Positions 8,224 through 41,514 of a DNA stretch of 64,000 nucleotides are shown here, piece after piece. Within the stretch, counting starts at the first letter, position 1. Each line of letters opens with the position of its first letter. The position numbers and the translations under genes are program-made. Where the stretch lies: positions 3,038,001 through 3,102,000 of the forward strand of contig NZ_CP094970.1 of NCBI RefSeq assembly GCF_025790165.1. The letters are read 5' to 3'. This stretch comes from Solicola gregarius. Lineage in GTDB: Bacteria; Actinomycetota; Actinomycetes; Propionibacteriales; Nocardioidaceae. A model generated the notes under the pieces. The model did not search any database and had not been told where the DNA came from. It saw only the letters and a list, made by a program, of their open reading frames with translations.

Positions 8224-8724
8224 TCAGGCGCCCGTGGACCCGTCGGCCAGCTCGCGCAGGATGTCGAGATGCCCGTTGTGGCGCGCGGTCTCCTCGACCA
8301 GGTGGTTGAGGATCCAGCGCAGGTTCGGATGGAAGTCGCGCAGGGCCTCGACGCTGAGGGTGTCGAGGTCGACGTCGGCGACGAGTTCGTCGCAGCGCTT
8401 CGTCTGCTCGCGATAGGCGGCGATCACCTCGTCGGCGGTCATCGACAGGGCCTCGGTCATCTCGCCGTCGGGGTCCTCCTCGGTCCAGGGGCCGAGGTCT
8501 TCACCGCCCAGGAACCTCGTCTCGATCCAGTCGAACTCGACCCAGCGCAGGTGGTTGAGCAGCGATGCGGGATTCGTCAGTGGCGACGTCGGCACCGGTG
8601 CGGCCACGACGAGCTCGTCGCTGAGGCCCGCGACCTTCTCGATTGCCGTCTCGCGGACGTACGCGAGCATGGTCTGCAGGATGGAGCGCTCGTCGAGCGC
8701 CGGCGGAGTGTCGGTACGTGTCAT
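8224..8724 (-). CDS. DinB/DUF664 family protein
   Basis: 166 residues. It carries the DUF664 pattern [20 protein letters not shown] in the middle and [22 protein letters not shown] at the C-terminus. These supply the three histidines of the DinB metal site. It is a paralogue of the 1981-2496 protein; both end in a LREL/VREL-D-GSTG tail. Mycothiol-dependent S-transferase activity is known for some actinobacterial members but cannot be assigned here. The start at 8724 was chosen because it gives the usual family N-terminus; the frame continues open upstream into element 8744-8905. Confidence 0.85.
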
Positions 8725-8743
8725 GCGCCCACCATGTCGCACA

Positions 8744-8905
8744 GGCCGTGTCTCCGCATACCCCGTCGGCCCGCGTGCCTCCGCATCCCGACCGGCTGCG
8801 TTGCGGTCACTCGAAGGAGGACCGGCTACATCATCGCTCCCGCGCCTTGCCGGATCGGGCGCGGACACCCGCTCGCTGATCGAAGCGGCATGCGGAGACA
8901 CGACC
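8744..8905. repeat. Variable-arm element, copy 1 (162 bp)
   Basis: It begins GGCCGTGT and ends ACACGACC. The terminal arms CGTGTCTCCGCAT (8747-8759) and their exact complement (8890-8902) form a 13-bp inverted repeat. The interior matches the reverse complement of the element at 41271-41500 in several blocks: GCGTGCCTCCGCATCCC, CTCGAAGGAG, TCGCTCCCGCGC and CGGGCGCGGA. It lies between the divergent DinB and tsaD genes, so part of it may belong to their promoter region. No open reading frame of its own is convincing. Confidence 0.8.
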
Positions 8906-8947
8906 TACGCCGCGCGGCGTACAGCACATATTGCGGTGCACAATGAC

Positions 8948-9994
8948 ATGGTGAGCGAACCGAAGGTGTTGGGCATCGAGTCGTCGTGCGACGAAACGGG
9001 CGTCGGCATCGTCTGCGGTACGGAGCTGCTGGCGAACGCCGTCGCGAGCAGCGTCGAGGAGCACGTGCGCTTCGGCGGGGTCGTGCCCGAGGTCGCGAGC
9101 CGCGCGCACCTGCAGGCGATGGTGCCGATGCTGGAGAAGGCGCAGGCCGACGCGGGCATCGGCATCGAGGAGGTCGACGCGATCGCCGTGACGAGTGGGC
9201 CCGGGCTGACCGGCGCCCTGCTGGTCGGGATCGCTTCCGCGAAGGCACTCGCGCTCGCGTACGACAAGCCGCTGTACGGCGTGAACCATCTCGTCGGGCA
9301 TGTCGCCGTCGACCAGCTCGAGCACGGGCGCCTCCCGACGCCGTGTGTCGCGTTGCTGGTGAGCGGCGGACACACCTCGCTGCTGCTGGTCAACGACATC
9401 GCCACCGACGTACGCCTGCTCGGCGAGACGATGGACGACGCGGCAGGGGAGGCGTACGACAAGGTCGCCCGCCTGATCGGCCTCCCGTACCCCGGTGGCC
9501 CGCACATCGACAAGGCGGCGGCAGACGGCGATCCGAAGGCGATCGCGTTCCCGCGCGGGTTGACCGCGCCGAAGGACCGCGAGCGGTACCGGTTCGACTT
9601 CTCCTTCTCCGGCTTGAAGAGCGCGGTCGCGAGGTGGGTCGAGGCACGTGAGGGTTCGCCCGACGGCCTTCCGGTCGCCGATATCTGCGCGTCGTTCCAG
9701 GAGTCGGTGTGCGACGTACTCACCGCGAAGACGATCGACGCGTGCCTTGCCAACGGCGTCGAGCACCTGGTCATCGGCGGTGGCGTCGCGGCGAACGGCC
9801 GGCTGCGGGCGCTTGCGGAGGAGCGTGCCTCCGCCGCCGGCATCGAGGTGCGCGTACCGCGCCCGGCGCTGTGCACCGACAACGGCGCGATGATCGCTGC
9901 GCTCGGTGCCGAGGTCGTACGTCGGGGTCTGCGGCCGTCGGCGCTCGACATCGCCGCCGACTCGTCGATGCCGGTCACGACCGTCGTCGCGTAG
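8948..9994 (+). CDS. tsaD: tRNA N6-adenosine threonylcarbamoyltransferase TsaD
   Basis: 348 residues of the Kae1/Qri7/YgjD family. TsaD transfers threonylcarbamoyl from the AMP adduct to A37 of ANN-decoding tRNAs, with TsaB and TsaE. The sequence begins [16 protein letters not shown], has the metal-binding HLVGH near residue 113, the ASKA-fold motif [12 protein letters not shown], the family block [16 protein letters not shown] and the nucleotide-site segment [13 protein letters not shown]. The usual neighbours tsaB, tsaE and rimI are not next to it here. The ATG at 8948 was chosen over the longer open frame, which runs back through the repeat element; GTG at 8951 is an alternative. Confidence 0.96.
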
Positions 9995-16709: not shown

Positions 16710-16771
16710 CGCTGGGCATGACGTTCGCGCGCGACACGCCGGCGTGTCGCGCGCAAACGTCATGCCCAGCG
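16710..16771. repeat. 62-bp near-perfect palindrome, GGGCATGACGT family, copy 2
   Basis: Two 31-base halves (16710-16740 and 16741-16771) are reverse complements at 30 of 31 positions, with no loop. The centre GCGACACGCCGGCGTGTCGC and the outer GGGCATGACGT word are shared with 13268-13334. It lies between convergent genes and supplies the TGA stop (complement of 16760-16762) of the methyltransferase gene. Confidence 0.92.
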
Positions 16772-40159: not shown

Positions 40160-40279
40160 AGCCGAACCAGCGTAGGTTTGCGGGCATGTCGGGCGCGACA
40201 GGTTTTCGGGCGTTCGGTACGTCGTGAGGTTTGGCCGGGGAGGCCCGCACTCGGTGCGGATACTGATTGACTGACGGTC

Positions 40280-41299
40280 ATGACAGCTGGAACACCGGTG
40301 GTCATCGCTCATCGAGGAGCGAGCGGCTACCGTCCCGAGAACACGATCGCCGCGATCGACCTTGCCGTCGAGCTCGGCGCCGAGTGGATCGAGCTCGACC
40401 TGGTCAGCACGGCCGACGGGGTTCTCGTGATCCGACACGAGAACGAGATCTCGTCGACGACCGACGTCGCCTCGCGAGCCGGCTTCGCTTCGCGGCGTAC
40501 GACCCGCGAGGTCGACGGAGAGGCGCTGACCGGGTGGTTCACCGAGGACCTCACCCTCGACGAGCTCAAGTCGTTGCGCGCGACGGAGCGCCGACCCGAC
40601 CTCCGGCCGGCGAGTGCCCGCCACGACGGCCGGTACGACGTGCCGACCCTCGAGGACGTGTTGGCGTACGTCGGGATCGCCAACGCGGAACGTTCGACGC
40701 CGATCGGTGTCTATCTGGAGCTCAAGCACCCGACGTACTTCGCCGACCGGGGCCTCGATCTGGTCGGTCCGCTGGTGGCCGACCTCGACCGGCACGGCCT
40801 GCTCGTCGACGGTGCGCCGGTGTGGTTGGAGTCGATGGAGACGGGTGTCCTCCGCGATCTCGCCGGCAGGGTCGGCTGCACGCTCACGCAGCTGATGGCC
40901 AGCGGCGAACAACCGTACGACCTGACCGCCGCCGGCGACCCCCGTACGTACCGAGACCTGTGTACGCCCGCCGGCCTGGCCGAGATCGCGACGTACGCGC
41001 AGCGGATCGGTCCGAGCAAGGGCCAGGTCATTCCGCGGGGCGCCGACCGGCGGCTCCGGGCGCCGACCAGCCTGACCGCCGACGCGCACGCGGCCGGGCT
41101 GGAGGTGCACGTGTGGACGCTGCGCAACGAGAACGTGTACCTGCCCAAGGAACTGCGGCGGGGGACTTCGGGCCACGAGATGGGAGAAGCGGCCGCCGAG
41201 TATGCGGCGTTCTTCGACGCGGGTGTCGACGGCGTGTTCACCGACTTCGTCGACACCGCGCTTGCCGCTAGGTCGTGTTGGCAAACCTCGCGTCGATGA
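40280..41299 (+). CDS. Glycerophosphodiester phosphodiesterase
   Basis: 339 residues of the GDPD TIM-barrel family, hydrolysing glycerophosphodiesters to an alcohol and glycerol-3-phosphate. The N-terminal signature VVIAHRGASGYRPENTIAA carries the first catalytic His and Glu. ELDLVSTADGVLVIRHE supplies the second set, and the third metal-ligand region is GVYLELKHPTYF. It lacks an obvious signal peptide, so it is probably cytoplasmic. The last nine or so residues (RSCWQTSRR) are encoded by the repeat element at 41271-41500, whose sequence supplies the stop codon. Confidence 0.9.
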   Translation: MTAGTPVVIAHRGASGYRPENTIAAIDLAVELGAEWIELDLVSTADGVLVIRHENEISSTTDVASRAGFASRRTTREVDGEALTGWFTEDLTLDELKSLRATERRPDLRPASARHDGRYDVPTLEDVLAYVGIANAERSTPIGVYLELKHPTYFADRGLDLVGPLVADLDRHGLLVDGAPVWLESMETGVLRDLAGRVGCTLTQLMASGEQPYDLTAAGDPRTYRDLCTPAGLAEIATYAQRIGPSKGQVIPRGADRRLRAPTSLTADAHAAGLEVHVWTLRNENVYLPKELRRGTSGHEMGEAAAEYAAFFDAGVDGVFTDFVDTALAARSCWQTSRR

Positions 41300-41500
41300 G
41301 GGAGCGGGACTCCGCGCCCGGTCTGTCCCCCAGCCGCAAGGCGGCTGGGAGGTGCCCCCATTCGCGCGGGAGCGAAGTTGTAGTTGGATGCTCCTTCGAG
41401 CGACCCGTAACGTAGCCAGTCCCCCAGCCGCTTCGCGGCCGGGAGGTGCCCCCAGGGATGCGGAGGCACGCGAGCCGGCGCGGGGTTTGCCAACACGGCC
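41271..41500. repeat. Variable-arm element, copy 2 (230 bp) with two inserted hairpin modules
   Basis: It begins GGTCGTGT and ends ACACGGCC, matching the ends of 8744-8905 in the opposite orientation. Terminal arms CGTGTTGGCAAACC (41274-41287) and complement (41484-41497) are a perfect 14-bp inverted repeat unrelated in sequence to the arms of copy 1. Internally it shares blocks with copy 1 and has two extra modules, around 41326-41361 and 41420-41455. Each is CCCCCAGCCGC, a short loop, then a GC-rich arm and GGGAGGTGCCCCCA. Such CCCCCAG...GGGAGGTGCCCCCA hairpins are common in Streptomyces genomes. Confidence 0.88.
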
Positions 41501-41514
41501 TGGTACCGGGTGGG

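Follow-up and report, generated by a model that had tools for sequence, protein, structure and literature searches.

What kind of element can change its arms from copy to copy and still keep them paired? The question is raised by two sites in the genome of Solicola gregarius (G000, one contig of 4,915,757 bases), both lying in a 64-kb window, by which we mean the whole stretch of DNA that was analysed. The initial annotation described the two sites as two copies of an intergenic element that share their ends and several internal blocks, and in which the segments just inside the ends are entirely different and yet are complementary to the opposite end of the same copy. Reading of the sequence confirmed the common ends (GGCCGTGT...ACACGACC in copy 1) and blocks at both sites, as well as the differing arms: copy 1 pairs CTCCGCAT with ATGCGGAG (8752-8759 and 8890-8897), whereas copy 2 (41271-41500) pairs TGGCAAACC with GGTTTGCCA. 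The arms are thus paired as described, but the complementarity of the ends is not exact, since C8746 lies opposite A8903 on the plus strand and the corresponding minus-strand bases form a G.U pair. Similarly, copy 1 does occupy 8744-8905, but its limits are better set at the flanking CA and TA (Table 1).

The count of two proved to be far too low. The 162-base query gave 40 BLAST pieces in the G000 genome, and a covariance model (R1) found 39 copies in these 4.9 Mb at E <= 4.5e-10, with complementary ends in other copies too. The element, of about 165 nt, belongs to a dispersed family, most members of which measure 160-180 nt irrespective of their arms, the exceptions being nested insertions and long forms. 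Copy 2 is longer than copy 1 because two hairpins of about 37 nt are nested inside it. Such hairpins (of the GTCCCCCAGCCGC..GCGGCTGGGAGGTGCCCCCA type) recur at the same two positions in other copies, as if they targeted the element. A further candidate at 16711-16770, with a weak match in the R2 search (E 1.4e-4), was rejected as a copy: it is a bare, near-perfect 60-bp palindrome centred on GACACGCCGGCGTGTC, without the core. A blastn comparison of copy 1 with plasmids and phages gave no match at E 1e-5.

Table 1. Features of the two copies in the window and of the genes beside copy 1 (CM, covariance model; A3 and A7, alignments described in the text)
Feature	Position	Strand	Evidence and remarks
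Element copy 1 with flanks CA (8742-8743) and TA (8906-8907) of the presumed target	8742..8907	minus (structured strand, presumed RNA)	CM matches 8741-8908 minus; fold z -6.9; missing at matched site in congener G001
Left arm GGCCGTGTCTCCGCAT	8744..8759	plus	13/16 like Arthrobacter IS5-family terminus GGGCGTGTCTCCTAAT, compared by eye
Right arm, minus strand GGTCGTGTCTCCGCAT	8890..8905	minus	with next two bases (GC), 15/18 identical to same Arthrobacter terminus GGGCGTGTCTCCTAATGC, by eye
Conserved core, 5' side on presumed RNA strand, GCAAGGCGCGGGAGCGA	8834..8850	minus	alignments A3 and A7
Conserved core, 3' side on presumed RNA strand, CCGCAACGC	8798..8806	minus	alignments A3 and A7
Apical part between the core sides; differs among copies and families	8807..8833	minus	
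Left neighbour gene, mycothiol-S-transferase / DinB-like; start 17 bases from element	8224..8724	minus	PF04978, 1.8e-35; start codon by eye
Right neighbour gene, tsaD	8948..9994	plus	PF00814, 1.6e-92; start codon by eye
Element copy 2	41268..41503	plus (structured strand)	CM matches; fold z -6.8; missing at matched site in G001
GC-rich hairpin repeat nested in copy 2, first	41325..41363, limits approximate	unassigned	same kind, same place in L031, L033 and L035
GC-rich hairpin repeat nested in copy 2, second	41419..41454, limits approximate	unassigned	same kind, same place in L034

The element is mobile, as seen in copies missing at matched sites and in TA/CTAG flanks. In the congener G001, whose aligned DNA is mostly 75-90% identical to that of G000, we compared 13 junctions. 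Eight G000 copies, including both copies of the window, have no counterpart in G001, and one G001 copy has none in G000, with the flanks continuing in each case; two copies are common to both genomes and two junctions are unclear. At the copy 1 site, 166 bases in G000 stand opposite 2 in G001. Presence and absence also alternate in Streptomyces, in the 5′ region of a gene which, from its sequence, we take to be gatC: a copy is found in 5 of the 30 loci read by eye (31 genomes matched) and in none of the other 25. One Streptomyces copy in this region (L358) has lost the core and apex and kept the paired arms, as a short hairpin remnant. In one Ramlibacter strain, three copies look recent, with an identity of 98-99% over 274-289 bases.

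The flank is TA, mostly within CTAG. This tetranucleotide begins 15 of the 24 copies in alignment A3, and is itself ten times rarer than expected from base composition in the 0.77 Mb around copies (0.28 per kb, expected 2.9); the whole window has it 10 times, against about 75 expected from shuffles. The presumed target duplication is imperfect: among 85 relatives, YTAR flanks both ends in 39 and TA both ends in 46, and many ends differ. As CTAG often holds a stop codon, copies adjoin genes exactly at TAG. Copy 2, for example, starts with CTAG, the TAG of which terminates the upstream ORF 40267-41271, and upstream genes in sense orientation end inside the element in 26 of 38 cases at the family loci and in 6 of 25 at loci from a scan with the core sequence pattern.

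The outer ends of the element resemble those of insertion sequences, and not always of the same kind. The end class of copy 1 (GG.CGTGTCTCC) is similar to the ends of IS5-family elements of Rhodococcus (two) and Arthrobacter, which begin CTAGGGCGTGTCTCC... and have their inverted partners 928-952 bases apart beside CTA/TAG. Both ends of IS1648 of plasmid SCP2, an element that we take to be IS5-like, have CTGTCCGGCGGATCA in common with the Streptomyces copy L239 (86% over 29 bases), and a large Streptomyces arm class has CTGTCCGGCGGATCA in place, as in both IS1648 ends. An arm of L264, from a proteobacterial metagenome-assembled genome (MAG), matches the end of an IS630-family element found on two Cupriavidus plasmids, with 90% identity over 31 bases. 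Since the arms match IS630-, IS1648- or IS5-type ends depending on the copy, one core lies between ends of different transposase families. IS5- and IS630-type transposases of this sort duplicate TA.

The terminal inverted repeats that the element has in common with autonomous insertion sequences were found in those of other hosts, not within G000. We rejected the idea of an autonomous partner in G000, as none of the three transposase domain models tried (PF01609, PF13358 and PF13586) finds one there; PF13586 is over the cut-off only in G041, at a locus that has a CTAGGGCCTGTCC end. The G000 copies therefore look like survivors of past activity, and movement in this genome would be a matter of its history only.

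These ends could mean that the element is an ordinary miniature inverted-repeat transposable element (MITE), whose arms pair only because the transposase binds at both ends, whose transcript folds as a by-product and whose middle is a relic of common descent. The outer bases do match the termini of insertion sequences, whose own ends are variable further in, and according to reviews, MITE transcripts commonly form stable stem-loops (PMC2229807, PMC10969869). However, the middle is common to copies whose ends match different families of insertion sequences, which this reading does not lead one to expect.

The predicted structure is a rod of about 165 nt. Its basal stem of about 25 pairs takes in the ends and is followed by an asymmetric loop, another stem, the conserved core (GCAAGGCGC.GGAGCGA / CGAG.G.CGGCAACGC.GC), with conserved A-rich bulges, and a variable apical hairpin. 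For copy 1 (8741-8908), the folding energy of the minus strand is -104.9 kcal/mol, versus -77 (sd 4.1) in 200 dinucleotide shuffles (z -6.9); the plus strand reaches z -5.2 by the same measure. We took 38 G000 loci and aligned them as A1, without seven that are nested or truncated (L031, L033, L034, L035, L042, L043 and L045). An RNAalifold structure from this plain alignment was poor, with diverged copies misaligned in the arms, and was mended by using a subset and the other strand. The subset, A3, leaves out L026, L032, L036, L038, L039, L041 and L044 and holds 24 copies, aligned without reference to structure. On average, two of these copies differ by 16% in their core and by 44-49% in their inner arms. 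At the arm tips, the outer ten bases differ by 10-14% and the next ten by almost half, so that the bases just inside the ends, where the initial annotation had noticed the divergence, are the fastest-changing part of the family. The differences of the two arms are correlated (0.87).

One of the readings offered by the initial annotation was a structure under selection, and counts of covarying pairs support it. In A3, 96.0% of cells pair, and 27 of the 59 pairs have changed on both sides. None of 500 shuffles reached 27, and sliding the partner by 1-3 columns left 3-10; the covariation score was 0.320, whereas the slid alignments scored 0.043-0.071 and the shuffles 0.146 on average. Together with the fold of copy 1, this covariation means that the structure is not due to chance. 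A second alignment, A7, comprises 85 matches at E <= 2e-7 from 84 chosen sources and, like A8 and A9, was fitted to the structure, which inflates its counts, while the unfitted A3 gives the weaker ones. In A7, 93.1% of cells are paired, 57 of 59 pairs are double-changed, in all nine helices, and the score is 0.766 versus at most 0.103 when slid. In both alignments, conservation tracks the pairing. The pairs well inside the ends (helices 2-9) are double-changed in 36 of 38 cases, which argues against the view that arms pair for a transposase only.

The same kind of change is seen in place, in comparisons that use model-fitted alignments. The orthologues L344 and L345, which share a common insertion at the gatC locus, differ in 5 of 57 pairs, of which two are double changes still paired, two are one-sided changes to a wobble and one is a non-standard pair. 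L342 and L344 differ by 11 double changes kept paired and by 6 with a non-standard pair, and may be independent insertions at one site, which L344 and L345 hardly are. In the G000/G001 pair L314/L336 there are one double change, two wobbles and one break. The in-place arm changes look like compensatory evolution after insertion. Compensatory changes, by which structured noncoding RNAs are tested, were thus found in A3, in A7 and among orthologues. With Rfam 15, searched at gathering and relaxed thresholds at the element and its relatives, no family was over threshold at the element. Below threshold, there were a mir-1397-like match over the element in L195 (22.5 bits, threshold 70) and an sR36-like match beside it in L046; only RNase P RNA, elsewhere in L384, was over threshold.

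Covariation would also be expected if the arms were copied from one to the other, by template switching or gene conversion in the hairpin. Double changes at one locus could have arisen in this manner, as at gatC and between L312 and L106, of which the arm reads GGTCGC or GGTTCC with matching partners; the model alignment of L312 and L106 is shifted by one base in the arm, which inflates the count, and we use only the arm change seen by eye. However, the one-sided changes kept as wobbles are not what copying would leave, and the difference between the two strands, set out below, speaks against it more strongly.

Either strand of the 31 aligned G000 copies was folded, and the one opposite to the plus orientation of copy 1 was the stabler in all 31, by a mean of 20.7 kcal/mol. 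Composition accounts for 8.5 of the 20.7 kcal/mol, and 30 of 31 copies exceed their own expectation. Folding favours the same strand in 86 of 87 relatives from the family (the exception is L080) and in 67 of the 76 copies of the pattern-scan set. The nine exceptions in this set are all Pseudomonadota, and eight of them are long forms of 226-277 nt, of which the two read (L240 and L244) hold two inverted cores. With L080 and these nine copies deviating, we rejected the notion of one consistent strand everywhere.

The departures from Watson-Crick pairing show the same asymmetry. In the 24 copies of A3, the wobble-type departures on the structured strand are 151 G.U versus 13 A.C cells. The 85 copies of A7, from many genera, have 450 G.U versus 39 A.C cells and 304 other mismatches, although many G.U columns are inherited and the cells are therefore not independent events. 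Counted by copy, G.U exceeds A.C in 84 of 85, with one tie and the reverse in none. For the arms alone, G.U is favoured in 56 copies and A.C in 7, with 22 ties; by region, the A7 counts are 100 to 14 in the arms and 350 to 25 in the core. The asymmetry is milder in the pattern-scan set, where the ungapped outer arms of the 76 copies have 42 G.U, 11 A.C and 36 other. The G+T fraction is 0.511 in unpaired bases and 0.547 in paired ones; as the unpaired bases are hardly rich in G+T, a simple mutational bias is unlikely to be the cause.

A double-stranded palindrome or a copied arm would show no such asymmetry, so the selected molecule is one strand. Copying would not yield wobble-type mismatches so strongly of one kind on one strand, and we hold it to be highly improbable as the origin of the paired arms. 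The bias to G.U on one strand, in arms and core alike, also speaks against an ordinary MITE, an explanation that we consider unlikely on these grounds taken with the covariation of the inner helices. Most simply, the selected strand is an RNA, the minus strand at copy 1 and the plus strand at copy 2; the G.U and energy evidence favours selection on RNA over both the copying of one arm from the other and a simple DNA palindrome. In DNA, G.T is likewise a mild mismatch, so strand asymmetry by itself fits RNA and single-stranded DNA alike, and the element could be a DNA hairpin of which a transposase recognises one strand, as with IS200/IS605 or REP. However, the ends match insertion sequences annotated as IS5 and IS630, with inverted termini beside TA, and we think such a hairpin very unlikely. 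The initial annotation had left the choice between a structured RNA, a DNA hairpin and copied arms; this now narrows to a minus-strand RNA (or another single strand), with copying disfavoured.

If the selected molecule is an RNA, it might regulate or terminate the transcripts of neighbouring genes, for example as a 3′ stabiliser or attenuator, and the intergenic position of the copies, often exactly at a TAG stop, would suit this role. However, copy 1 sits between two divergent gene starts, and the 174 copies that we placed with our own gene caller have no preferred orientation: 38 are sense to both neighbours, 55 antisense to both, 42 convergent and 39 divergent (placement took in 42 of 43 copies in one set and left out 1 and 3 edge copies in the others, and in 7 copies a called gene overlies the element). 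Antisense placement of the structured strand relative to its neighbours is at least as frequent as sense placement, which leaves no host transcript to account for it, and without a bias to sense a role of the RNA in attenuating or terminating neighbouring genes is unlikely. We thus rejected the terminator or attenuator function, and see only a slight chance for a regulatory hairpin of adjacent genes in general. Any function of the RNA would not be tied to these genes; most likely, it would act in trans through the conserved core, on behalf of the element or of a host protein.

The search of the genome and its relatives that the initial annotation had advised showed that the family extends well beyond S. 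gregarius. R1 detected it in 37 of 149 Nocardioidaceae genomes (8 of 26 genera) and R2 in 49 of 396 Actinomycetota genomes (34 of 237 genera), G000 being included in both and one R2 match lying in a locus of 47% GC. In these family and phylum searches, few candidates were scored per genome (19 and 7, respectively), and copy numbers are thus lower bounds. Among the matches listed, the core sequence pattern occurs mainly in Nocardioides and Streptomyces, but also in Ramlibacter, Thiomonas and Burkholderiales and Myxococcales MAGs. Not all pattern matches are copies: some fall in unrelated sequence, and no arm pair with a score >=10 is seen in 26 of the 123 listed; the pattern-scan set consists of the 76 of 123 with an arm score >=14 and a length of 140-320. 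In seven proteobacterial or myxobacterial genomes with copies, R2 gave 1, 2, 62, 2, 3, 19 and 17 matches, whereas it gave none in seven genomes whose pattern match was armless. Relatives were thus found in Betaproteobacteria and in a myxobacterial MAG. The 62 matches, many at contig ends, come from a 2.5-Mb assembly of a Burkholderiaceae MAG (G576, the source of L244) and represent the highest density seen. In the betaproteobacterial L240 (2008-2280) and L244 (2368-2640), both of 273 bp, two cores in inverted order lie between one pair of ends. The family is large and apparently without a name: we found no description of it in the open-licence literature, which is not proof of its absence from print. 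Its mobility, its insertion-sequence-like outer ends and its spread over phyla had escaped the initial annotation.

Several known systems share some of these properties. REP/BIME elements are dispersed hairpins of 20-40 nt with a GTAG foot, which are moved by RAYT transposases. The present element, likewise a dispersed hairpin, is about 165 nt long and has CTAG and inverted termini like those of insertion sequences, and we rejected its membership in REP/BIME because length and ends differ. IS5-family (IS1648-like) and IS630-family insertion sequences resemble it in terminal sequence and CTAG/TA flanks, but carry a transposase, and the core was not seen in five scanned loci of such sequences (L388-L392) or, by short motif, in L339. 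The closest described case is RUP of Streptococcus pneumoniae, a 107-bp MITE with IS630-Spn1-like ends and a TA target (PMC2229807, PMC3049150); both are short, noncoding and dispersed, with a TA target and IS630-type ends. In these sources, RUP is described in pneumococcus, whereas the core studied here spans phyla, its ends are like those of at least two families of insertion sequences and its structure is strand-specific and covarying, so that the two are set apart by description. BOX, Correia/NEMIS, ERIC, CIR and other bacterial MITEs are likewise intergenic, with long stem-loop transcripts; such MITEs are described as mostly A+T-rich, and the consulted portion of the review does not describe exchangeable ends around a conserved RNA core in them (PMC2229807). 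The element is thus of a known kind, a MITE, and differs in having a constant, covarying, strand-specific RNA core under exchangeable ends in several phyla.

Taken together, these results make it probable that the element is a non-autonomous mobile element with insertion-sequence-like outer ends and, inside, a conserved rod-shaped RNA under selection for pairing, one copy of a family of GC-rich MITEs with interchangeable ends around a conserved structured RNA core. The outer layer would imitate the terminal inverted repeats of insertion sequences that target TA within CTAG, the models being IS5-family elements for the ends in Actinomycetota and an IS630-family element for one proteobacterial copy. 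A transposase of this type, absent or undetected in G000 today, would once have moved the element in trans. The inner layer would be a rod RNA of about 165 nt, transcribed from one strand, in which the core is fixed, the apical hairpin varies and the long basal stem continues into the ends. Once inserted, the rod would remain under selection for RNA pairing, such that bases of the inner arms drift and the opposite side compensates. Such compensated drift, together with the recruitment of different transposon ends, could produce copies with different arms that still pair. More tentatively, and with somewhat less than an even chance in our estimation, the rod-shaped RNA may itself be the unit of inheritance: a selfish module that spread through Actinomycetota, Betaproteobacteria and Myxococcota via the ends of any CTAG-targeting insertion sequence at hand, and that acts in trans on a host or transposase protein via its core, independently of its neighbours.

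Bacterial MITEs are usually treated as shortened insertion sequences, with the ends as their defining feature. In the present family it is the middle that stays constant, in that one covarying RNA structure is found with ends of different transposase families across phyla. That pairing is kept by evolution while the ends change explains the differing yet pairing arms that were first noticed at the two sites. The family makes it testable whether small mobile DNAs of bacteria are vehicles of functional RNA, for which a ready covariance model, 39 copies in this genome and the 62 matches in one Burkholderiaceae MAG are at hand, and it opens the question of which protein, if any, the core binds. 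Our findings thus suggest that a mobile RNA has borrowed the ends of different transposons and in this way reached many bacteria.
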